This document shows, one piece after another, positions 20,069 through 31,351 of a stretch of 64,000 bases of DNA. The number at the start of each line of letters is the position of its first letter. Position 1 is the stretch's first letter. The DNA comes from Candidatus Nitrotoga sp. HW29 (GTDB taxonomy: Bacteria; Pseudomonadota; Gammaproteobacteria; Burkholderiales; Gallionellaceae): the NCBI RefSeq assembly GCF_924101635.2, contig NZ_CAKMAA020000072.1, positions 1-64,000 of the forward strand, in the 5' to 3' direction. The notes beneath the pieces were generated by a model. It worked only from the letters and a program-made list of their open reading frames with translations, was not told the origin of the DNA and ran no database searches. The translations under genes and the position numbers were made by a program.

Positions 20069-20656
20069 TTAGTGTGCTGTCTGTAGTAGCAACTTTATAT
20101 CCTGCACTAACAATTCGGCACGTTGGTTATAAGGAGAGAGCAATACAGGTTTGCCGCGTGTGCCAATTAGGTAGGTGCCATCGGAATGATCCAGTGTATA
20201 GCTTCCTTTTTCGACTCGTTTTTCGTAGCTGACGCCAAATGTCTTGGCTACCTGTGCAGTAGTTTGGGCATCACCGTACAAGCCAAGAAAAGACGGATTA
20301 AAAGAGGGGACATATTCAGCTAGTAGTTTTGGTGTATCGCGTTCTGGATCCAATGTAACGAATAGCACCTGCACCTTTTCTGCATCCTTATCAAGTAGGC
20401 GCATCACCTGCGCTAAATCAGCCAGCGTAGTCGGACAAATTTCGGGGCAGTGAGTGTAACCAAAAAATAATACCACTACCTTGTCTTTAAAATCAGATAA
20501 TTTGCGCGTTTTGCCGTTGGGGTCAGTGAGATTGAAATCCACAGGTTTTTCTATATACCGCCAACTGACATCAACAGCTTGGAATGGTGCAGGGGGCTTG
20601 GATTTTTCACAACTGACCAGCAGTGTCATAACTAACAGTAAAAGCAGGCTACGCAT
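20069..20656 (-). CDS. SCO1/SenC/PrrC-family copper chaperone lipoprotein
   Basis: This periplasmic thioredoxin-fold lipoprotein of 195 residues has signal and lipobox MTLLVSCEKS. The copper-binding CxxxC is in GYTHCPEICPTTL, and the partner histidine is in TLDHSDGTYLIG. Family members deliver copper to the CuA site of cytochrome c oxidase or sense redox state. It is a single gene, with no oxidase subunit in the window. It lies tail to tail with recX. Confidence 0.93.
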   Translation of the reverse strand: MRSLLLLLVMTLLVSCEKSKPPAPFQAVDVSWRYIEKPVDFNLTDPNGKTRKLSDFKDKVVVLFFGYTHCPEICPTTLADLAQVMRLLDKDAEKVQVLFVTLDPERDTPKLLAEYVPSFNPSFLGLYGDAQTTAQVAKTFGVSYEKRVEKGSYTLDHSDGTYLIGTRGKPVLLSPYNQRAELLVQDIKLLLQTAH

Positions 20657-20882
20657 TTATTTTTCCTTACAACAATCAGTAATTGCACCGATGGATAATT
20701 GTAGAATTACAAATAATGATATCAGTTTAAGCTGATGGAACAGATGATGGGTGCACAACGATCAATCCATTGTGACAGATTTTCATTGTGGTAATGTTGG
20801 TGGTTACAAGGAAAGCTATAGAGTTTATGTGCAGATTGAACAACAATATCGGGTACGTTATAAATAGTTGTCTGATATGTTA

Positions 20883-21611
20883 CTAGCGTGCACGCTTTCC
20901 TATACAAGCTTGTAGCCCGGGCAGGCACAGTATTTCCAATGATCTATTGCGTACATTGATCAGTTTACTTTCCTGCAGGTGTGACAGTGCGCGGCTGACG
21001 GTTTCCAGTTTTAATCCGAGATAACTGCCAATTTCTTGACGCGTCATGCGCAATTGGAATGAGGTGGGGGAATAACCGCGTATCGCAAAACGCTGCGATA
21101 GATTGAGCAGGAAAGCGGCCAAGCGTTCTTCTGCACGCATTGATCCAAGCAGCAGCATAATGTTTTGATCGCGGACAATTTCTCGGCTAAGGATGCGGTG
21201 CAGGTGTCTTTGTAGAGGAGGGAGCTCTCGGCCGAGATCCTCCAGGCGATTAAAGGGAATTTCACATATCTCACAGTCTTCAAGTGCTACTGCATCGCAA
21301 GTGTGTGTATCACTACTAATGCCATCCATACCGATGATTTCTCCAGCCATCTGAAAGCCGGTCACTTGCTCGCGTCCGTCTTCATTAAGGATCTGGGTTT
21401 TGAAAAAACCAGTACGAATTGCATACAGCGCCTGAAATTTGTCTCCGCTTCGATATAAGATGCTGCCATGACGGTAAACACCCTTGCGGGTGATTAAATC
21501 ATCCAAGAGCGCCATTTCGATATTACTCAGGTTAACGGGCAGGCATAGTTTGCGAAGATTACAAGTTGAGCATGCAGTTTTCAGTGAGTTGTTGGGAACG
21601 GGTTTGTGCAT
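20883..21611 (-). CDS. FNR/CRP-family anaerobic transcription regulator
   Basis: This 242-residue regulator has a cyclic-nucleotide-binding-type sensor domain and a C-terminal helix-turn-helix (MTRQEIGSYLGLKLETVSRAL). Cys14, Cys17 and Cys23 in ACSTCNLRKLCLP, with a further cysteine in the THTCDAVALEDCEIC region, fit the four ligands of the oxygen-labile [4Fe-4S] cluster of FNR. ETVSR is the FNR recognition helix. The start at 21611 (MHKPV) is preferred over 21668. An FNR site ~90 bp upstream points to autoregulation. Confidence 0.88.
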   Translation of the reverse strand: MHKPVPNNSLKTACSTCNLRKLCLPVNLSNIEMALLDDLITRKGVYRHGSILYRSGDKFQALYAIRTGFFKTQILNEDGREQVTGFQMAGEIIGMDGISSDTHTCDAVALEDCEICEIPFNRLEDLGRELPPLQRHLHRILSREIVRDQNIMLLLGSMRAEERLAAFLLNLSQRFAIRGYSPTSFQLRMTRQEIGSYLGLKLETVSRALSHLQESKLINVRNRSLEILCLPGLQACIGKRAR

Positions 21612-21701
21612 GGTATGGATTTTTATAAGGTATTTTGGTATGCGGCATTGATATGTTGATACGGGCAAAAAATTAATATAGGGAAAAATTATATGTTAAT
21701 T

Positions 21702-21715
21702 TTGACATATATCAA
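21702..21715. promoter_or_regulatory. FNR box upstream of the fnr-type gene
   Basis: TTGACATATATCAA differs by one base from the FNR consensus TTGAT-N4-ATCAA. It lies about 90 bp upstream of the minus-strand FNR gene start, a usual distance for an autoregulatory site. Confidence 0.75.
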
Positions 21716-21852
21716 GTCGTAAGTGAGAAATTTCCAATATACAATCATATTTTTTATAGGTTAGTCTTTGAATTAATATGGTTTTACAGTGTCTTACGGT
21801 GAGTATTATTTTTAATAAGCGTAATGATGAACTACAGGGAAGTTAGTTGAAA

Positions 21853-21889
21853 ATCCGTTTGTTCTGAAACTTGTCGAAGGATGGTCGAA
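21853..21889. repeat. REP-like hairpin repeat, copy 1
   Basis: TCCGTTTGTTCTGAAACTTG followed by TCGAAGGATGGTCGAA is an imperfect hairpin related to copies at 38457, 59652 and 60275. The core GTTCGTCCT...AGGATGAGC is recognisable in all of them. Confidence 0.65.
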
Positions 21890-22155
21890 TTGCTAGAAAG
21901 ATAGATGGGATGTTTTGTATGTACATACTCCGCTCGATGGTGGTTATTGCCTTGATTATCCGACAATCTTAAAAGCACATCAGTTTGTGACGGGGAGCCA
22001 GAAAATGGGGCTTGTGCCACATGCGCCCTTCAGTGGAACTTGCTTGGTTGTAAAATATGCCATACGAGAGATACGTTTGTCGCCAAGATGATCAAGATCA
22101 ATGGAAAGCTGCGATAAGCTCAAAACTTACATTGGAACTATGGATGTGACGCTAG

Positions 22156-22172
22156 TGTCGAAAATTTTTACA
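22156..22172 (+). promoter_or_regulatory. Putative activator box shared with the PEP-CTERM gene
   Basis: TGTCGAAAATTTTTACA matches TGTCGAAATATTTTACA (minus strand, 33027-33043) at 15 of 17 positions. It lies ~98 bp upstream of the -24 element at 22270, where enhancer-binding proteins of sigma-54 promoters bind. I infer it is a PrsR-type site. Confidence 0.6.
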
Positions 22173-22267
22173 TTTTGCTAATAATAGTATTAAGCAAAAT
22201 TAAAAATCGATAAGTATGTGCAATGTATAATTTTGTTTATTAGCATATTATATTTTATACGCAGAAT

Positions 22268-22284
22268 TTGGCATGTATTTTGCT
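22268..22284 (+). promoter_or_regulatory. Sigma-54 promoter of the HPr-rel-A cluster
   Basis: TTGGCATGTATTTTGCT has GG at 22270-22271 and GC at 22282-22283, with exactly ten bases between, and it fits the TTGGCAC-N5-TTGCT consensus at all but one base. Transcription would start near 22295, about 100 bp ahead of the first gene. Confidence 0.78.
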
Positions 22285-22397
22285 TGGGTTGTTTGAGTGT
22301 ATTCTACCGGCCTCCTCATTATTATTATTTATTTACGCTAAATAATTGAGTTGTAGCAGTGTGTGTAATGCAGGATACAACTTTAAAAGGATAATTA

Positions 22398-23126
22398 TTG
22401 ATGACTATCAATTTGGATCAAAATGATGAGCTGGAAAAGCAGCAGCTATCTCAGGATACAGATGATCAAATAAAATTTTCGGGCGAATCTCGTAGACGAT
22501 TTGCGGCGTCTGGTTTGGCTGTGTCAGGGATAATTCTAACTCTTGCGAGTCGACCCGTATTGGGTGATCCGTTTTGTATGTCACCATCCGGGTTTATATC
22601 GGGCAATACCAGTCAGCATGGCGCTTGTCCTCCAGCACCCATGGTTACCACTAAACTGGTCATCAATCCAGATGAAACATTTATGGCAGCATTTCCAAAG
22701 TCAAGCCAATCAAATACGTCATACAATAATAAACGCTTGTCAGATATGTTGACAATTCCTTGGCCAGAGCCTCAACTGCAAGTGGCAAAGAGTAAATTGG
22801 GGGCTGCGAGCTACATGACGGCATTTGGCACTTCATCAGGTTCAAATTCTTTGATGCAAAAGGGCAAGGGAACAAGTAATACAACGGCGTCAACTTCAAC
22901 AACTTCTGCACCGCCGAATCCCCCCTTTCAAACACAAGAACTATTACAACATCTTGTAAAAGCATTACAAAATGCGAGAGGTGGAGCAACGCCTTATTTA
23001 ACTGAAGATACAATTCGATCGATGTTTTATGAATGGCAGGATCATGGCAGCTTTTCTCCAACTGCCAATGTAAATTGGAATGCTTCAGAAATTATCTATT
23101 ATTTAAAACAAACTCAAAATAGTTGA
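22398..23126 (+). CDS. Tat-signal protein of unknown function, first gene of the HPr-rel-A cluster
   Basis: This 242-residue protein matches no family I recognise. Residues ~28-56 carry a twin-arginine-like signal (SRRRFAASGLAVSGIILTLA), preceded by an unusually long, charged, Gln/Asp-rich N-terminus. The exported part contains two cysteines (DPFCMSPSG and HGACPPAP), a Ser/Thr/Gly-rich low-complexity middle and a more ordered C-terminus (ELLQHLVKALQNARGG, then YLTEDTIRSMFYEW). AAAGGA lies ahead of the ATG. It begins the operon with the PqqD-like and kinase genes. It may be the substrate of their modification, but this is inference; it could also be an accessory envelope protein. Confidence 0.75.
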   Translation: MMTINLDQNDELEKQQLSQDTDDQIKFSGESRRRFAASGLAVSGIILTLASRPVLGDPFCMSPSGFISGNTSQHGACPPAPMVTTKLVINPDETFMAAFPKSSQSNTSYNNKRLSDMLTIPWPEPQLQVAKSKLGAASYMTAFGTSSGSNSLMQKGKGTSNTTASTSTTSAPPNPPFQTQELLQHLVKALQNARGGATPYLTEDTIRSMFYEWQDHGSFSPTANVNWNASEIIYYLKQTQNS

Positions 23127-23175
23127 ATTATTACTATAACCAGATTGGCTTTTCTTTTACACACTGTAATTAAAC

Positions 23176-23454
23176 ATGAAATGGCAAGTAATCCCCAATC
23201 AAGTGGTTAACTGCTGTTTATGGGATGATGAATTCGTGTTTTATAACAAATTTTCGGGAGATACGCACCTGCTTGGTTCAATGGCTACTCGAATACTCAT
23301 GGAATTACGACAATCGCCATCAAACGTGTTATCGTTAACAGCAATGCTTGCTCCATGTCGACAAGTTAAAATGGTAACGGATGAGGAATTTTCATTTCAA
23401 ATTGAACACTTTCTCAATGAGCTTAATACGCTTGGGTTGATAGAATTTAGCTGA
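23176..23454 (+). CDS. PqqD-family peptide-recognition protein of the HPr-rel-A system
   Basis: This 92-residue winged-helix protein of the PqqD/RRE type has a strand-rich N-terminus (VVNCCLWDDEFVFYNKFSGDTHLLGSMATRILMEL, here as two blocks). The DEFVFYNKFSGDTHLL region fits the HPr-rel-A PqqD subgroup. In RiPP pathways such domains bind leader peptides and bring them to modifying enzymes. No PQQ genes are nearby. The gene ends two bases before the kinase start, so the two products are probably made together and may act as one complex. Confidence 0.82.
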   Translation: MKWQVIPNQVVNCCLWDDEFVFYNKFSGDTHLLGSMATRILMELRQSPSNVLSLTAMLAPCRQVKMVTDEEFSFQIEHFLNELNTLGLIEFS

Positions 23455-23456
23455 TT

Positions 23457-24368
23457 TTGAATGTTTCTGCATTAACCTCATCAGAACTTAAACGCCGTCT
23501 TAAAAAGACGGGGATATTGCTGCAAACCGGTTCTTTTATCACCCATCTTAAAACTTCAATTTCCAGCGTGGCTGAAGGTATCGGTCTGCTTTATGCCGAT
23601 TACCCCTTAGTCGAACAGGATGGTTTTGCAGATTTTCATATTAGCCTGGTGCGCCCGCGTAACCTGCGGCGATGGTTTAAGCCTCAAGCGCTGTTTGTAT
23701 TTGATGGAAACACGATATTTAAACCCCTGCCGCTCGATCAGGCATTTCCTATGTTGGAGTGGGGGCTTAATTGGTGCGTATCAAATCATGTTAACCACTG
23801 TTTGATTATTCATGCAGCGGTGGTTGAAAAAGATGGTTATGCTGTAATTATGCCCGCCCCTCCTGGTTCGGGTAAGAGTACTTTGTGTGCAGCGTTGATA
23901 AACCGTGGATGGAGGTTGCTGTCTGATGAGCTTGCATTGGTTCGTGTTAGTGATGGAAAGCTCATCCCGCTTCCGCGGCCTGTTAGCTTAAAAAATGAAT
24001 CTATTGAAATTATCAGGCGCTATGAGCCCAATGCGATTTTCAGCCGCAAGGTGGCAGATACGATAAAGGGTACGGTTGCCCATATGAAAGCACCAGCTAG
24101 TAGCTTAGCTCGCGCTACAGAGGTCGTTCAAGTTGCGTGGATTATTTTTCCAAAATATCAGGCAGGGGCTAAGGCCTGTTTGGAGGCATTGCCTCAATCT
24201 CGCGCTTTTATGCGGGTCGCGGATAATTCGTTCAATTACAGTCTTCTTGGATTCAATGGCTTTAAGACCATGTCGAGTTTGATTGATGCGTCTCTGTGCT
24301 ATGATTTTACGTACAGTAAGTTGGATGATGCCATTGGCGTATTTGGTGCATTAAAGCCAAAAATTTGA
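23457..24368 (+). CDS. HprK-related kinase A
   Basis: This 303-residue P-loop protein resembles the C-terminal kinase domain of HPr kinase/phosphorylase. Walker A is PAPPGSGKSTLCAAL, with Lys140, and Asp157 in WRLLSDELALV takes the place of the catalytic acidic residue. The N-terminal ~100 residues are specific to this group (HprK_rel_A). Start is TTG two bases after the preceding stop, with no ATG nearby. The substrate is unknown. HPr itself is not encoded here, and related kinases in lasso-peptide clusters phosphorylate peptides. Function beyond ATP-dependent phosphotransfer is inference. Confidence 0.82.
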   Translation: MNVSALTSSELKRRLKKTGILLQTGSFITHLKTSISSVAEGIGLLYADYPLVEQDGFADFHISLVRPRNLRRWFKPQALFVFDGNTIFKPLPLDQAFPMLEWGLNWCVSNHVNHCLIIHAAVVEKDGYAVIMPAPPGSGKSTLCAALINRGWRLLSDELALVRVSDGKLIPLPRPVSLKNESIEIIRRYEPNAIFSRKVADTIKGTVAHMKAPASSLARATEVVQVAWIIFPKYQAGAKACLEALPQSRAFMRVADNSFNYSLLGFNGFKTMSSLIDASLCYDFTYSKLDDAIGVFGALKPKI

Positions 24369-24539
24369 GAGCGTAATTATCTGCATTCTAAATAGAATGC
24401 TATTTACGGTCAGGTTATTCTCAGCCTTCATTAGAGTGGATGGATTTGTTCTTCTGCGGGAAATTGAATCCGCCAGTTTATTATCTAGCATCTATTTTAC
24501 ATAGAGCACATTAATTATTTTTGACAGACATTATCAAAT

Positions 24540-25616
24540 GTGATCCAAAATTATTTAATATTGCAAGCGCTCCGAGAGCCAAAAACATTAACTTCCCTGA
24601 GTTTAACTGATTGGGATTTACTCATACGCCAAGCACGTCGCGCTAATCTGTTGGCGCGTATCTGTATTTTACTGGACGAATACGGCTTGCTCGAACAGGT
24701 GCCGCAAAAACCCCGGGAACATCTGGAATGGTCGCGTGTAATTTCTGAAAAGCACATTCAAGCTGTTCACTGGGAAATCACCCAAATTCGAAATGCATTG
24801 GTAAAAACTGGGATACCAGTTATTCTCCTCAAGGGCGCTGCTTATGTAATGGCAAAACTGCCGTCCGCCAAAGGAAGATTATTTTCCGATATCGATATAA
24901 TCGTACCTAAAGGGAGTCTCAATGCTGTAGAGGCCGCCTTGATGCTTCATGGTTGGGCTGCGACGCATCACGATGCCTATGACCAGCGCTACTACCGCAC
25001 ATGGATGCATGAGCTACCCCCCATGCAGCATATTAAACGGATGACTGTCATCGACGTGCATCATGCGATTCTGCCGGAAACGTCCGCTATTCATCCTGAT
25101 TCGGCAAAGCTTTTGGCTGCGGCACAATTACTGGATGGCTATGACGATTTAAAGGTGCTTGCACCGGTCGACATGGTGCTTCATAGTACAGTTCACCTAT
25201 TCTACAATGATCAACTGGATCAGGGTCTGCGTGACTTGGTTGATATTGATAGTTTATTGCGTCATTTTAATAGTTTGCCAGCATTTTGGTCTAATTTAGC
25301 CGTGCGAGCGCGGGAACTTGAGTTAAGTCGTCCACTTTTTTACGCCTTGCGCTATGCTACTCATTTTTTGAAGACTCCCATACCCGCAGGTATGATAGAG
25401 GTCGCTAACAATGGGCGTCCCAACTCATTAACCTTGATATTTGCAGATCAGCTTTTTGAACGTGCGCTCATGCCAGCCCACAAGAGCTGCTCTGATTGGT
25501 TGACTGGTGCAGCCCGACAGATACTTTATATACGCGCAACCTGGTTACGCATGCCCCCCTTGCTTCTTGCGCGTCATTTGTTCCATAAGGCCTTCATTTC
25601 ACCCAAGATTGAATGA
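24540..25616 (+). CDS. Nucleotidyltransferase family protein (NTP_transf_5 type)
   Basis: This 358-residue protein has a minimal nucleotidyltransferase core: PVILLKGAAYVMAKLP followed by GRLFSDIDIIVPKGSL, with the metal-binding Asp117 and Asp119. The long helical C-terminus carries HHAILPETSAIHP and DMVLHSTVHLFYND. This family accompanies HprK-related kinases in several peptide-modification clusters, and its reaction here is unknown. The start is GTG without a clear ribosome-binding site. The 171 bp gap before it contains a perfect short hairpin, GCATTCTA/TAGAATGC (24383-24400), that may be a processing or termination signal. Confidence 0.8.
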   Translation: MIQNYLILQALREPKTLTSLSLTDWDLLIRQARRANLLARICILLDEYGLLEQVPQKPREHLEWSRVISEKHIQAVHWEITQIRNALVKTGIPVILLKGAAYVMAKLPSAKGRLFSDIDIIVPKGSLNAVEAALMLHGWAATHHDAYDQRYYRTWMHELPPMQHIKRMTVIDVHHAILPETSAIHPDSAKLLAAAQLLDGYDDLKVLAPVDMVLHSTVHLFYNDQLDQGLRDLVDIDSLLRHFNSLPAFWSNLAVRARELELSRPLFYALRYATHFLKTPIPAGMIEVANNGRPNSLTLIFADQLFERALMPAHKSCSDWLTGAARQILYIRATWLRMPPLLLARHLFHKAFISPKIE

Positions 25617-25730
25617 TTGCATCCTGGCACTGTTGATTATTGTGCTATATAAATTGTTAGTTGTTTCTGTACATGAATCAGTAAAAACTGGGTTTCTGGA
25701 CTGCTTAATAGTAAACATAAGGATAATCAC

Positions 25731-26513
25731 ATGAGTGATGTAGAGACTTCATTGATCAAACTTCAGGATTTGTCTAATTTCTTAGAAAAGGGGAGTCTTA
25801 ATGACAACCTTGCACAACTAGCTGAAATGACGGCAAAAATATTGAGCGCTATAAATTGCTCAATCATGCTGCTCAATGATGATAAATCCGATAATTTACT
25901 GATGAGCGTGTTTGCTAGTTACGGTCCGCTACCGGCTGCAGCGTATAAAGAATTGATAGGGAAGGGCGAGGGCATTGCTGGCCATGTGATTGCAACCGGG
26001 CAATCATTGTTGATCGAAGATATTAATCGTTCGGAATTCGCCAAATTGGCCAGACGTGCAAATGAACCAGGTAAAAGTTTGATTTCCTCGCCTATCACCA
26101 TTGGTGGGCACATTATAGGTGTAGTTAATATAAGCGGTCACATGCGCAATTGTGCATTCAGTCTGGTTGACTTGAATCTTCTTAATGTGGTTGCTTTATT
26201 CATTGGTAAATCAATTCAAACAATCCAATTACAGAATATTTTGAATTCGCGGTTTGCCCAATTGGCGCTAGCTCAAGAAGCCCAAAATAATATGGGCGCA
26301 TCTTTGGGTAATGTTTTTCATAATCCGGATCAAGTGGCAAAAATATTTGCAAAATCTTTTTATAAAGAAATGGCCAGGGGAGGATTCGGCTCAAATCAAA
26401 TTATTAGTGTAGCTTCGGAAATTATTAGTCAGTTAAGTGATAATTTGCAACATCACAGCCAGAGAATGGAACGGAAGATGGCTAAACCATCAGACGATAA
26501 ACCATTATTATAG
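25731..26513 (+). CDS. GAF-domain protein
   Basis: This 260-residue cytosolic protein has a GAF domain at about residues 20-165 (SAINCSIMLLNDD, GKGEGIAGHVIATGQSLLI, SPITIGGHIIGVVNISG). Beyond it lies a helical tail without a kinase, cyclase or DNA-binding domain. GAF domains sense small molecules or mediate dimerisation; the ligand is unknown. AAGGATAATCAC precedes the ATG. It is the last plus-strand gene of the HPr-rel-A set and ends 49 bp before the convergent outer-membrane gene. Membership of the same transcript is likely but not certain, because of the 114 bp gap. Confidence 0.82.
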   Translation: MSDVETSLIKLQDLSNFLEKGSLNDNLAQLAEMTAKILSAINCSIMLLNDDKSDNLLMSVFASYGPLPAAAYKELIGKGEGIAGHVIATGQSLLIEDINRSEFAKLARRANEPGKSLISSPITIGGHIIGVVNISGHMRNCAFSLVDLNLLNVVALFIGKSIQTIQLQNILNSRFAQLALAQEAQNNMGASLGNVFHNPDQVAKIFAKSFYKEMARGGFGSNQIISVASEIISQLSDNLQHHSQRMERKMAKPSDDKPLL

Positions 26514-26562
26514 AAAGTTGTCCCATCTGGAGAATTTTAAGATTCGGATATTCTTTGTTCAA

Positions 26563-28206
26563 TCAGAAGCCGTATTTCATTTCTGCAAATAACAATGAGT
26601 TATCTCGCAGCCGCCCGAAGAACGTATTATTGTCTCCTCGATAAATATCTAAGCCAAGCGATCCTTTCACGTTGTCACTAAAGGCATAGACTAGTTTAGG
26701 CCTTATGAAATAATTGCTCTGTCCGAAAGAGCCAACAGCAGCAATTTCGCCTTCCAGTGTCTCATTAAACCATTTGTTGCTGATTCGAATGCTTACGCCA
26801 TGCTGGGAACGGCTGAACTGGTTCCATAGCGCACCTGTTTGGATTGCGACTGGGCGCAGGAGAGGGTCTGTTATCGCCTGTGGGTCGGAATAGTTTGTAA
26901 CATGACGGAGGTAATATTGAATATTGATGTTAAGGTAGTCAAGGAAAGTTCTGTCACCGCCCATTACCATATAGAGAAACGGCTTCTTTACAAGAAAATC
27001 GTTCTCACCGGTATTTGCTGTCCAAGTATATGCGGCTTCAGCACGCAATCCATAGCGCCCAATGACCGTAGCGGCATCCATTCCCAATACGTGGATGCGA
27101 TTGTGATCGAAGATTATATTTGTTCCAGACAGGGTTGTTGCTCCAATCGCGATGTCAGGAGTTAGATCTAACCCACTATAGTAGGAAGCTGACCAATCCA
27201 CATTACCTCCGCTGTGATCAAATTTGAGCGCAATCCGGTTGGTGTGGGGGATATGTTGCGTAAAAAAAATGCCTGGTGTTGTAGCGACAGGGAAGATATG
27301 GGGGTCCATACCAGGAAGCCAGATAGCGGTCAGTGAGTTTTCATGCGAGTGATAAGTTATTTTTGCTGCCAATGATCCTAATCTCTGATCATCTTCTTCA
27401 GCCGTTAGTAGCGTGAAGTTTCGAGGCGTCAAATTGTCAGTTGGGTTCAAGCGATCTGCCCGTCCCCAAACTATAATTTGCCTGCCGATTCGGTAATCAA
27501 CATTCTCAGTACTGAATTTTATATATCCCTCTTGTAATTTTTTAGAATCAGCGTCTGCTCTGAAAGTTTCGTCGTTACGAATCCATCCCTGAGCAACCAC
27601 GGAAACGTTTTCTCCGATATTTTGCGTAGCTTTAAGCCATATCGAGCTGGTACCCAAATCGTTTTTCCCATCCAGCTTGCGTGATGAACTGAAATATCCT
27701 GCTCGAATTGAACCACTCAGCTCCGGTTTTTGTAAAAAACTTACATCCACTTTCTCTGCTTGAGTTGAGACACTCTCTGCCTGTGGGAATAAAGTATTTG
27801 GCGCTGGTTTCAGTTCGAGATTGAATTCGCGGATAATTAGACCATGTGGAATACAGTGTGCTTTTAGCGGAAGCGTTAGCAAGCGTGTATTGATTGGGGT
27901 CGCTGTGGAAATTTTGATTCGTTGGCCAATGTTCCTATCTCCTTCCAGTTCTAAACTTGCAGCGGGCAAGTCAGGTTCCGCTTGTCCGACTTTTACCAAA
28001 GAAAAGCAGCTAGTCGTTATTTTTTCGTCAGGGTTTGAAGGGAATATCTGAACATACGCGAGTAGTGGTTCTCCCTCTCTACTGATACTTTCGATTTCAC
28101 CGATGATCAGTGCATGAGCCAGCTGTGTACTGAGCGATGCAAAGATAATTGCCAATGATAGAGCGCGCCTTGTGTAGCAGGAAATATTAATGCCCATTTG
28201 CAGCAT
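26563..28206 (-). CDS. Outer-membrane beta-barrel protein with FimV-like N-terminal domain
   Basis: This 547-residue exported protein has a signal peptide ending ...QLAHA. Residues ~33-140 (GEIESISREGEPLLAYVQIF, RIKISTATPINTRLLTLPL) follow the pattern of the FimV N-terminal domain. Residues ~160-547 consist of alternating strands, with aromatic girdles and a terminal aromatic (EMKYGF) as in porin-like barrels. Its start overlaps the end of the LolA-like gene by one base, in an operon with the MMPL exporter. Related exporter operons often encode a DUF1302-like barrel at this place. Substrate unknown. Confidence 0.7.
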   Translation of the reverse strand: MLQMGINISCYTRRALSLAIIFASLSTQLAHALIIGEIESISREGEPLLAYVQIFPSNPDEKITTSCFSLVKVGQAEPDLPAASLELEGDRNIGQRIKISTATPINTRLLTLPLKAHCIPHGLIIREFNLELKPAPNTLFPQAESVSTQAEKVDVSFLQKPELSGSIRAGYFSSSRKLDGKNDLGTSSIWLKATQNIGENVSVVAQGWIRNDETFRADADSKKLQEGYIKFSTENVDYRIGRQIIVWGRADRLNPTDNLTPRNFTLLTAEEDDQRLGSLAAKITYHSHENSLTAIWLPGMDPHIFPVATTPGIFFTQHIPHTNRIALKFDHSGGNVDWSASYYSGLDLTPDIAIGATTLSGTNIIFDHNRIHVLGMDAATVIGRYGLRAEAAYTWTANTGENDFLVKKPFLYMVMGGDRTFLDYLNINIQYYLRHVTNYSDPQAITDPLLRPVAIQTGALWNQFSRSQHGVSIRISNKWFNETLEGEIAAVGSFGQSNYFIRPKLVYAFSDNVKGSLGLDIYRGDNNTFFGRLRDNSLLFAEMKYGF

Positions 28207-29021
28207 TATTCTTTTTCCATGTACCGTGTAGTAAAGAACTCATCTTTTACCTGTTGGTTTGCCTTGAAGTTATCGAATTTAATCACCGTGCGGTGGCCGG
28301 TCTGAACGTTGTTTGCTTCAAGACGCATGGCCTGCCATTTGCCATGCGCTTTGTCTACTAGTTGAATATCGGTATAGGTCGAGGTTTTTAACAGCTGCCC
28401 TGTTTCATCCCAAAAATCCATTTTTACTGCCATTAAATTATCTTTGCGTAGCCAGCCAATACGTTTCGAGTAGCCATTACTGGTTTTAATTGCGTCAGAC
28501 TTTGGTAATGATTCAATAACGTAACAGGGTTGTCCTTCTACCAGCTCTTCTTTGAGCAGCTTGTAATTCCATTCACCCACTTTATAACCAATCACGTCGG
28601 CATAAGAGAAATCCGTGCCTACAAAACTATCTTTCTTATTGTTGGAAACAAGACGCCGCACTTTTTTTAGTGCAGGTAGGTATATCCAAATGTCGTCATC
28701 CTTCTCGGCATGTTCAATTAGTAACGATACCGTTCCTTTCACATCCGGAGGTGACAAAAATCGCGTCATACGCATATTGTCGATACCGTTTTCTTCGAGC
28801 TTGGTCGTGCCGAAGGTTTTACGCACTCTTTCTTGCCCAGTTTTGTTGATTAGGGTAAACGTAGCATTAGCCACCGAATCATAAACTTTTGAAACGACGA
28901 AATTCTTTTGCATGATCTGGGCTAGATCAATTTCTGCTGTCCATACATTTTGTGACTGCATTGATAGGCCAAAAACAAGTGCCAATACGACGATAGGTAT
29001 AGGTAATGGATTATGTTTCAC
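28206..29021 (-). CDS. LolA-like outer-membrane lipoprotein-sorting protein
   Basis: This 271-residue periplasmic protein has a signal peptide (PIPIVVLALVFGLSMQSQ...). The mature part reads as the LolA-like fold found next to MMPL transporters: DDIWIYLPALKKVRRLVSNN, FVGTDFSYADVIGY and MRLEANNVQTGHRTVIKFDN. Such proteins are thought to carry lipids or lipid-linked molecules between the two membranes. Its start overlaps the stop of the exporter gene by four bases, and the beta-barrel gene follows with one-base overlap, so all three should be coupled. Confidence 0.85.
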   Translation of the reverse strand: MKHNPLPIPIVVLALVFGLSMQSQNVWTAEIDLAQIMQKNFVVSKVYDSVANATFTLINKTGQERVRKTFGTTKLEENGIDNMRMTRFLSPPDVKGTVSLLIEHAEKDDDIWIYLPALKKVRRLVSNNKKDSFVGTDFSYADVIGYKVGEWNYKLLKEELVEGQPCYVIESLPKSDAIKTSNGYSKRIGWLRKDNLMAVKMDFWDETGQLLKTSTYTDIQLVDKAHGKWQAMRLEANNVQTGHRTVIKFDNFKANQQVKDEFFTTRYMEKE

Positions 29022-31351
29022 GGCGTTCTCCTGAAAATAAAATCGGGGCGGAATGTAAGAATAAGCGCGGGGATAAGCAATAGCGCAGACAGAGAGCTCA
29101 TGATCATGGCTTCAGCAATCAGAATTGCCAGCCACTTGTGGATATTATACCCAAATGACAACAACAGCACTCCGTAACCCGCTGATACGGAGATCGCAAC
29201 GAACAGAATAGCTTGCCCCGCTGTTGCAATGACGTTTCGAACCGCTGTAATTTCGTCTGTTCCTCTACTAAGCTCTTCGCGTAAGCGGTAGATTAGATAG
29301 ATTGCATAATCCGCCCCTATTCCAACGGCCATTGCTGAGATAAGCGAAGTTGAAATGTTTAGTGGAATTCCACTCCATCCCATCAGGCCAAAATTAGCCA
29401 GCACAGCAACCAGAAGAGGAAGAAGAACCAGCATTCCTGCTATAAATGAACGGAAAATTAGGCTGGAAATAATGAATACAACAACAATGATTTGTAGAAT
29501 ATTGAGTATTTTTCCGTAAACCATGACCTCATTGAGTGCTGCACCTTGGGGGACACTGCCGCCGATCCCAATATGTACATTTTGATCGAAGTGTAGTGCT
29601 GTAAATGCATGAATTTTTTCTACCAACTTTTCTATATAAGCGCTGCTATCTGTCCGCAGAAACACCGTCAGATTGGCGGAGCGGTAACCATAATCGACAT
29701 AGGAATCGAAATCTCCCGGTTCGCCAGACATTGAATAAAGTAGTAAATATTGTGAAATCAATTCCTGGCTGTCCGGAATTTTATAATAAGCGGGATCGTC
29801 TCCGTGCATAGCCTGATTCATGCGCATGATAAAGTCGGCTAACGAAATAGTCTTGCCAACATAGGGTTGATTTTCAAGAAAACGTTGCAGCTCTCCCATG
29901 GCTTGGAGCGTTTTTGGATTCTTTATAGCATCGTCACTTGTCCCCTCAACCAGCAAATACATTGTATTGGTACCACCAAGGCGCCCATTCAAAGCTTTAT
30001 CGTCTTTTTCGAAAATCAGTTCGGGAGAAAAAAAACTCTTGGTAGAGTTATCCACAGTAACCCTACCCATCCCTATTAGGGTAATAATGACGAAAAGCAA
30101 AACCCCTCCGTACACCCTGCGCCGACTGGTGCCGGTTACCCAGTTCGCTATTGCGTTGGTTACTTTGTCCCAAATCCGTTTCTTTTGTTCACGTTTTCTT
30201 TCAACATCACTTGGTGGCGCAAGTATGGAGCGCAAGGCCGGGATAAAAGTCATTTCAAGAATCAATGCCGCAAGAATTCCAATACCGGTAAAAATTCCAA
30301 AAGTACGCACCGTGCTGATCTTAAAAATCACCAAAGAAAAAAAGCCCAAAGAAGCGACCGCTCCGGCGGCAATCATGACTGGCCCAACACGGAGAAGAGA
30401 GGAAATAACTGCCTGATTATTTGCAACCTTGGGCGAAAGATCCGTTGTTTCCCGTAAGTGGAAATAGTCTTCGTAATAGCGCTTAAGTAACTGCACCGCA
30501 TGGCCTGTTGCCACCGCCAGAATCAAAATAGGGGTCGCGGAGTTAAATACATCCATTGGAATGCCGGAAGCGCCCATCACGCCTATCCCCCAAGCGACAG
30601 CCAAACCCGCTGTAACCAATGGCAAGATAAGCCCTTGCTTCGTGCGAAAGGCTTCAAAAAGAACCAGGCTTAAAACCAGGATAGCAATTGGGAAGAGAAA
30701 TCCGATACGCTCCGAGTAAATTTCAATGCGGGCAAGAAAACTTGGAATTCCTCCTATGTTGATTTCAATTCGAGGATCTCGTTCATGTTCAACGACAGCA
30801 TCCACTTTATCCATGATTGCCCGGAAACCACCCGGCCCGTCTTTAAACTCCACGAGAAGGGCTGTTGTTTTTGCATCAGTAGAAACGATGGAATTTAAAT
30901 AAACAGGATTTTTCCCGACTGCTCCTTTTAGTTCAGTCATTTGTGCGGCCGTAGCTGGGACCGTTGACATTAACGGTTTGACTTCCAAACCTTCCTCCGT
31001 ACCGGCAATATTTTTGGCGCGTTTCGAGGAAAGGCTTAGTAAATTTTCTTTAACCACGCCCGGTGTCTGAAGAAAAGCTGCTGTCATGCGCTGGATTTTT
31101 TCCAAAACGACAGGTTGATAGATATCGCCTTCTTTCGGAGTGATTCCTACCATGACAACATACTTCGACCCAAAAACCTTCTCAACCTGGTTGCTCGTCG
31201 TCACATAGGGGTGAGACTGGGGAAGCATGGTATTAGGATCGATAATGATACTCAGGTTTTTTGCCTGAATGATTGCTGCAATTGTGACTATTAATGTCAA
31301 GGCAATGACTACGAATCGGTAGCGAATAATCCATTCTATGTAACGTTGCAT
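29018..31351 (-). CDS. MMPL/RND-superfamily exporter
   Basis: This 777-residue inner-membrane protein has the HpnN/MmpL-type plan. One N-terminal helix is followed by a periplasmic domain, a group of helices ending near residue 390, a second periplasmic domain and a second helix group. Motif AMAVGIGADYAIYLIYRLREE in helix group two is the proton-relay signature of this superfamily. No membrane-fusion protein is present; a LolA-like protein and a barrel follow instead, suggesting a lipid or hydrophobic cargo. It is the first gene of a three-gene operon transcribed towards the HPr-rel-A cluster. Confidence 0.88.
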   Translation of the reverse strand: MQRYIEWIIRYRFVVIALTLIVTIAAIIQAKNLSIIIDPNTMLPQSHPYVTTSNQVEKVFGSKYVVMVGITPKEGDIYQPVVLEKIQRMTAAFLQTPGVVKENLLSLSSKRAKNIAGTEEGLEVKPLMSTVPATAAQMTELKGAVGKNPVYLNSIVSTDAKTTALLVEFKDGPGGFRAIMDKVDAVVEHERDPRIEINIGGIPSFLARIEIYSERIGFLFPIAILVLSLVLFEAFRTKQGLILPLVTAGLAVAWGIGVMGASGIPMDVFNSATPILILAVATGHAVQLLKRYYEDYFHLRETTDLSPKVANNQAVISSLLRVGPVMIAAGAVASLGFFSLVIFKISTVRTFGIFTGIGILAALILEMTFIPALRSILAPPSDVERKREQKKRIWDKVTNAIANWVTGTSRRRVYGGVLLFVIITLIGMGRVTVDNSTKSFFSPELIFEKDDKALNGRLGGTNTMYLLVEGTSDDAIKNPKTLQAMGELQRFLENQPYVGKTISLADFIMRMNQAMHGDDPAYYKIPDSQELISQYLLLYSMSGEPGDFDSYVDYGYRSANLTVFLRTDSSAYIEKLVEKIHAFTALHFDQNVHIGIGGSVPQGAALNEVMVYGKILNILQIIVVVFIISSLIFRSFIAGMLVLLPLLVAVLANFGLMGWSGIPLNISTSLISAMAVGIGADYAIYLIYRLREELSRGTDEITAVRNVIATAGQAILFVAISVSAGYGVLLLSFGYNIHKWLAILIAEAMIMSSLSALLLIPALILTFRPDFIFRRTP

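Follow-up and report, generated by a model that had tools for sequence, protein, structure and literature searches.

Twin-arginine-signal proteins as likely substrates of the HPr-rel-A enzymes in Candidatus Nitrotoga and other bacteria

A four-gene cassette was identified in Candidatus Nitrotoga sp. HW29, within a stretch of 64,000 nucleotides (assembly GCF_924101635.2, contig NZ_CAKMAA020000072.1, positions 1 to 64,000; referred to as the window), encoding a protein with a twin-arginine-type signal (the precursor), a PqqD-like protein resembling the recognition elements (RREs) of ribosomally synthesized and post-translationally modified peptides (RiPPs), an HprK-related kinase, and a nucleotidyltransferase. 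The latter three genes recur in many proteobacteria, with Massilia, Duganella, and Thiobacillus among the hosts, and almost always adjoin the gene for such a probably exported precursor. In the most likely reading, in which we place moderate confidence, RRE-guided phosphorylation of a serine in a conserved precursor motif would be followed by the transfer of a nucleotide or sugar. Scoring above the curated cut-offs of TIGR04352 and TIGR04353, respectively, the kinase and the PqqD-like protein are members of the NCBIfam ‘HPr-rel-A system’. These enzymes had already been named; as far as libraries and literature were searched, the substrate family and its motifs apparently had not. The likely substrate therefore represents the new element, and the cassette is likely a lasso-type tailoring system with an unusual substrate.

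Proposed function of the cassette

In the proposed export-tagging mechanism, the PqqD-like protein, an RRE of the lasso-B1 type, would bind the twin-arginine signal region of the precursor in the cytoplasm and present the precursor to the kinase, which would phosphorylate a conserved serine beside a cysteine. In class-A precursors, the predicted acceptor lies just after the signal within Cys-x(2,3)-Ser-Gly-xx-Ser-Gly-Asn, with S63 and S67 being the candidate acceptor serines of the window protein; in the other class (class B), it would be located at the C-terminus within Cys-hydrophobic-x-Ser-[F/L/I]. The nucleotidyltransferase would then put a nucleotide or sugar on the phosphate, after which the modified product (a protein or peptide) would exit by twin-arginine translocation (Tat), the signal would be removed, and disulfides would form. 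The end product may work in the envelope, perhaps with an exosortase-type exopolysaccharide. Only tentatively do we extend this to a widespread type of system in which the twin-arginine signal serves as a RiPP-type leader, a phospho-linked nucleotide or sugar is carried by the serine of the Cys-Ser motif, and the disulfide-bonded product can be joined to exosortase-type exopolysaccharide.

An earlier sequence-only reading had named five consecutive plus-strand genes at positions 22156-26513. All five were found in the open reading frames (ORFs) of the window, and the kinase, the PqqD-like protein, the nucleotidyltransferase, and the GAF protein score above their family cut-offs:

22401..23126, plus strand: precursor (substrate candidate) gene, 241 residues, twin-arginine-type signal, family without a name
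22491..22568, plus strand: twin-arginine signal region, precursor residues 31-56 (RRRFAASGLAVSGIILTLASRPVLGD)
22575..22616, plus strand: motif C-x(2,3)-S-G-x-x-S-G-N-x-S, precursor residues 59-72
23176..23454, plus strand: PqqD_rel_X, RRE-like (TIGR04353, 56.2 bits, cut-off 35)
23457..24368, plus strand: HprK-related kinase A with H119, Walker-A K140, D157, and E158 (TIGR04352, 405.4 bits, cut-off 200)
24540..25616, plus strand: NTP_transf_5 nucleotidyltransferase with G112 R113, D117, D119, and D172 (PF14907, 191.3 bits, cut-off 31.2)
25731..26513, plus strand: GAF-domain protein, not part of the core (PF01590, 47.7 bits, cut-off 22.4)

Positions 22156-22400 represent bases 5' of the first gene, and only two bases separate the PqqD and kinase genes. 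The precursor starts at ATG 22401, with AAAAGGA close 5' of it, and its stop codon ends at 23126. The ORF of the previously proposed 242-residue Tat protein was thus recovered, its length depending on the start (242 residues from TTG 22398, 241 from the ATG) and its signal being read from the sequence.

Co-occurrence of the gene set

Kinase loci were drawn from named genomes (the best 80 of 272 kinase relatives, the closest to the window kinase being Candidatus Nitrotoga with 91% identity) and from genomes sampled across the taxonomic class and the phylum, in which 27 of 274 and 61 of 398, respectively, carry a kinase above the cut-off. The resulting 133 loci, including those of 19 of the 27 kinase-positive class genomes and 36 of the 61 phylum genomes (two shared), were cut to 125 at 95% kinase identity. 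The remaining 25 phylum genomes supplied 24 loci for the held-out set, in which redundancy was kept; one genome was excluded because a contig end cuts its kinase (G434). Eight kinase-positive class genomes stayed outside all counts; in six of seven loci inspected from these, an RR-signal ORF was recognized by eye, together with a motif like that of class A.

Two of the 125 non-redundant loci, L096 and L077, offer just 255 and 176 bases of upstream sequence and were set aside as not assessable; 119 of the other 123 have an RR-signal ORF ahead of the kinase, on its upstream side. Absence of the Tat-protein gene from most kinase clusters, which had been put forward as a refuting test, was accordingly not seen. 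The iterated precursor model had 111 matches among 17,531 ORFs, spread over 110 loci and in every case directly upstream of the kinase, the model being trained on the same loci that gave these 110 positives; nine further precursors, accepted by eye, belong to other classes of the phylum. The distance between the precursor end and the kinase ranges between 209 and 803 bases. PqqD matches were obtained at 115 of the 125 loci, and at 113 of the 119 precursor loci the match lies between precursor and kinase. Co-occurrence of the nucleotidyltransferase with the kinase, also proposed beforehand as a check, was confirmed at 123 of 125 loci, the gene being on the same strand in 119 and upstream on the opposite strand in four. 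The GAF protein, previously counted with the set, has relatives at only 18 of the 125 kinase loci and was rejected as a core part.

Furthermore, the class-A alignment, searched against the 274 class genomes, matched in 30 of them; as it holds rows from some of these genomes, the test is only partly independent. In 22 of the 27 kinase-positive genomes, the match sits at the kinase locus; the other five are G015, G091, G213, and G134 (class-B precursors), and G259, whose contig stops 639 bases upstream of the kinase. Besides these 22, the matches comprised two genomes (G101 and G184) in which the match adjoins a weaker HprK-like kinase, with another match on a different contig of G101, one weak match (G022), and five matches to the body domain alone (SPGYW...W), without the signal (G015 C37, G215 C152, G080 C1, G099 C48, and G084 C6), none of which has an adjoining kinase match. 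The signal goes with the cassette, and the body domain is found in other proteins too.

Two precursor classes and their serine motifs

The precursors are between 74 and 287 residues long. No Pfam or NCBIfam family covers those scanned, including 10 of the 26 class-B members; the 68 class-A members of alignment A1 match no Pfam model, body domain included, and the window precursor gave zero Pfam or NCBIfam matches at E 0.1, including the Pfam Tat-signal model. Its structure model is confident at about residues 172-240 only, most of the protein being of low confidence; a fold search with this model gave no match at an E-value of 0.001 or less, and a PDB sequence search with the precursor profile returned nothing useful. 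The shortest precursors, judged by eye, hold merely about 12 (L151) and 18-20 (L056) residues after the signal. Together with the low-confidence window model, this leaves the emphasis formerly placed on a folded protein unsupported.

Class A, to which the window precursor belongs (C59, S63, S67), was counted over 90 rows, leaving out L138 (wrong start), L119 (broken ORF), and L125 (masked bases). Its members share the RR pair (89 and 90 of 90), a conserved T-L-x-S-R-P ahead of the cleavage region, and then C-x(2,3)-S-G-x-x-S-G-N-x-S. In window numbering, C59 is conserved in 88, S63 in 88, S67 in 89, and S71 in 68 of the 90 rows, S63 and S67 showing no variation across the 68 A1 rows.

All 26 class-B precursors carry [C/A]-[WFYLMNI]-x-S-[FLI] within their last 25 residues, the cysteine being present in 24 and replaced by alanine in L145 and L171. 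In 1000 rounds of shuffling, the motif occurred in 0.27 sequences on average and in three at maximum. Since it had been defined on the 26 themselves, the held-out loci were tested. A strict Tat-signal regular expression missed held-out precursors; a hidden Markov model of the signal, trained on the class-B set of 26, instead provided a precursor at 20 of 24 loci (none was obtained at L048, L055, L194, and L199), all 20 with C-[WL]-x-S-[FL]. As 19 of these 20 have bodies from a single group already represented in the class-B set, the confirmation applies inside that group more than to new groups. Among 1764 genes predicted at the loci, 13 have the cysteine form in their last 25 residues, all of them precursors; the crude ORF picker behind this background had retained just 13 class-B precursors.

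Bodies of the two classes share no blastp match (E 1e-3). At the same threshold, the 46 class-B bodies (26 plus 20) fall into eight unlinked groups with 30, 9, and 2 members and five singles, among which L151 and L056 are too short for the grouping to mean much.

Enzymes and comparison with known systems

The model of the PqqD-like protein (predicted local distance difference test score 88) is closest to the lasso B1 RREs TbiB1 (5v1v, E 1.2e-4, template modelling score 0.75) and TfuB1 (6jx3, E 2.1e-3), both of which have been solved with leader peptides. The sequence profile provides weaker evidence, with designed helical proteins (8cwy, E 0.0022; 5h7c, 0.0033) scoring similarly to 6jx3 (0.0039) and 5v1u (0.007). 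In the kinase, H119, K140, D157, and E158 are invariant in all 112 aligned sequences, and in the nucleotidyltransferase, G112-R113, D117, D119, and D172 are invariant in the 38 aligned rows; a PDB sequence search with the profile of the latter gave nothing useful. The kinases sort by precursor class, 111 of 112 having a nearest neighbour that shares their class. Because the motif position also differs by class, the choice of acceptor may have shifted between them.

The pairing of an HPr-kinase-like enzyme with a nucleotidyltransferase is likewise known from the tailoring of lasso peptides such as paeninodin and pseudomycoidin (PadeK/ThcoK and PsmN). PadeK is reported to phosphorylate the C-terminal serine of the lasso precursor, and PsmN to be required for hexose addition onto the phosphoserine (PMC9266682), the acceptor being described as a conserved C-terminal serine of the precursor (PMC9266682; PMC7533575). 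The RRE and lasso-tailoring parallels drawn from the sequence alone are thus borne out by the PqqD model and by these reports. Unlike lasso precursors, the precursors studied here bear a twin-arginine-type signal and have 74-287 residues.

A lasso peptide cluster as such was rejected, as the B2 leader peptidase family (PF13471) has no match in the window’s genome; an asparagine-synthetase-like cyclase was absent from the ten ORFs scanned at 20069-31351, the remaining genome not having been searched for it. An asparagine-synthase-like gene lies near nine of the 125 loci; the member scanned was rejected as a lasso cyclase (239.5 of 525 bits for the lasso cyclase model) and represents an XrtA amidotransferase (1017.9 bits versus 816.9). 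Given the RRE fold and the kinase and nucleotidyltransferase residues, without the PF13471 peptidase, the cassette resembles the tailoring half of a system for phosphorylated lasso peptides, lacking peptidase and cyclase and acting on a probably exported precursor.

Among other named systems, HPr kinase/phosphorylase HprK has the P-loop domain in common, the profile match being weak and far below the cut-offs (TIGR00679, 20.7 of 240 bits; PF07475, 19.1 of 33.3). The HprK-like SynChlorMet kinase ScmC (TIGR04249) was the second-best NCBIfam match, with 34.1 bits versus a cut-off of 125. The SynChlorMet cassette also includes a PqqD-like protein, as well as radical SAM enzymes; none of the ten ORFs scanned at 20069-31351 was assigned to a radical SAM family. 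Compared by family name, the NCBIfam HPr-rel-A system includes the kinase and the PqqD-like protein and holds no model for the precursor or its motifs. In the literature searched, no paper was found using the name ‘HPr-rel-A’, joining PqqD or HPr kinase with exosortase, or naming PF14907, NTP_transf_5, or HprK-related, and those that mention HPr kinase along with PqqD and a nucleotidyltransferase concern lasso peptides; a word search of the main text of two RRE surveys gave no word beginning with ‘HPr’.

Exosortase setting

In the class sample, exosortase was detected in 25 of 27 kinase-positive versus 59 of 247 other genomes (Fisher p 1.8e-12, kinship ignored here and below). The association is weaker across the sampled phylum, exosortase being present in 31 of 61 genomes with the kinase and 46 of 337 without it, leaving 30 kinase-positive phylum genomes that lack exosortase. 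The window’s genome has one exosortase. XrtA/PEP-CTERM-type exopolysaccharide genes, the clusters being named by one scanned member each, lie within 8 kb at 53 of 125 loci (45 of 98 if only loci with complete 8 kb flanks are counted) and were absent from this distance at the window locus.

This neighbourhood, together with the exosortase co-occurrence, would also suit enzymes whose substrate is a small molecule or a precursor of exopolysaccharide, the Tat-signal protein being a binding or structural partner of the polymer and no substrate. We regard this explanation as improbable, as the studied lasso-type kinase and nucleotidyltransferase are described as acting on peptides (PMC9266682), and a C-terminal motif common to bodies without detectable similarity would be hard to explain otherwise.

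Signal region and cysteines

All 68 rows of A1 have R31 and R32, with T47 and S50 present in at least 90%. For class-A pairs at 55-65% kinase identity, the signal and the serine motif each average 0.48 identity, compared with 0.28 for the body and 0.15 for the residues before the RR pair, the class-A part of this comparison additionally excluding L072, L177, L178, and L179. A signal conserved nearly like the kinase, with the mature body conserved far less, is the pattern of a recognized leader, as judged from these alignments. A loose AxA pattern was found in 118 of 119 precursors, and TatC is present in the window’s genome (228.7 bits); the precursor is a putative Tat substrate, its signal being unconfirmed by the Pfam Tat-signal model.

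Signal conservation near the kinase level, unlike that of the residues before the RR pair, could also reflect a quality-control chaperone system made up of the PqqD-like protein, kinase, and nucleotidyltransferase, with binding and reversible phosphorylation only timing the export of the cognate protein and leaving no lasting modification. However, this would account neither for the serine motif near the far C-terminal end of class-B precursors nor for a nucleotidyltransferase with invariant catalytic residues, and we consider it unlikely. In 25 of 26 class-B precursors, the part after the signal contains an even number of cysteines, as expected for disulfides formed after export. The formation of a thioether (lanthionine-like) ring on an exported peptide, in which phosphoserine would act as the leaving group to yield dehydroalanine and the neighbouring cysteine would add to it, is suggested by the cysteine two or three residues before the serine (88 of 90 class-A and 24 of 26 class-B members), but is highly improbable, given that no lyase or cyclase is among the named genes of the cassette, that alanine replaces the cysteine in L145 and L171, and that even cysteine counts suit disulfides better.

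RRE binding and modification of the precursor are predicted from synteny and conservation. Several observations weigh against RRE-guided phosphorylation with subsequent nucleotide or sugar transfer. The kinases feature His-Lys-Asp-Glu in place of the His-Lys-Asp-Asp described for lasso kinases (PMC9266682), and the position of the motif at opposite ends in the two classes means that a single acceptor rule is not proven. Residues before the RR pair are hardly conserved (mean identity 0.13-0.15 where kinases are less than 0.65 identical), which would leave the signal itself to act as the leader. At E 0.1, the Pfam TAT_signal model has no match among the 68 class-A members; of ten class-B members, it matches one, below the cut-off (18.4 bits, cut-off 22.7). 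Without its support, the Tat reading rests on the RR pair, the hydrophobic stretch, and the loose AxA test. Six precursor loci have no PqqD match, and no precursor was found at four assessable kinase loci (L076, L175, L166, and L190), of which the first three lack a PqqD match as well and L190 has one.

Neighbouring genes and related loci

An HtrA/trypsin-type serine protease gene, named from one scanned member, is located near the cassette at 30 of 125 loci (e.g., L097:7425-8231), at 20 of the 30 on the same strand and upstream of the precursor, and represents a possible processing enzyme. Twelve loci encode weaker HprK-like kinases that miss the TIGR04352 cut-off; at four of them, small RR-signal ORFs (‘RRxFIKKAAYxAPVVLTL’-like) were observed nearby (L204:4576-4746 and L204:6200-6388, which flank one kinase, L205:3934-4206, L209:1741-2187, and L210:1964-2233), perhaps indicating a wider family of such peptides. 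In the window, a gene for an Fnr-type regulator (20883-21668, minus strand) is divergent from the cassette. On the other side, adjacent minus-strand genes at 26563-31351 encode an MMPL transporter, a LolA-like outer-membrane lipoprotein-sorting protein, and a protein weakly similar to DUF1302, likely representing a lipid export set unrelated to the cassette.

Significance

The precursor family, with its signal and serine motif, makes the function of the HPr-rel-A enzymes directly testable by mass spectrometry. If the proposed mechanism is true, RRE-guided modification in the style of RiPPs would reach exported proteins and peptides of about 74-287 residues, and bacteria with exosortase would gain a possible phospho-linked connection between protein and polysaccharide.

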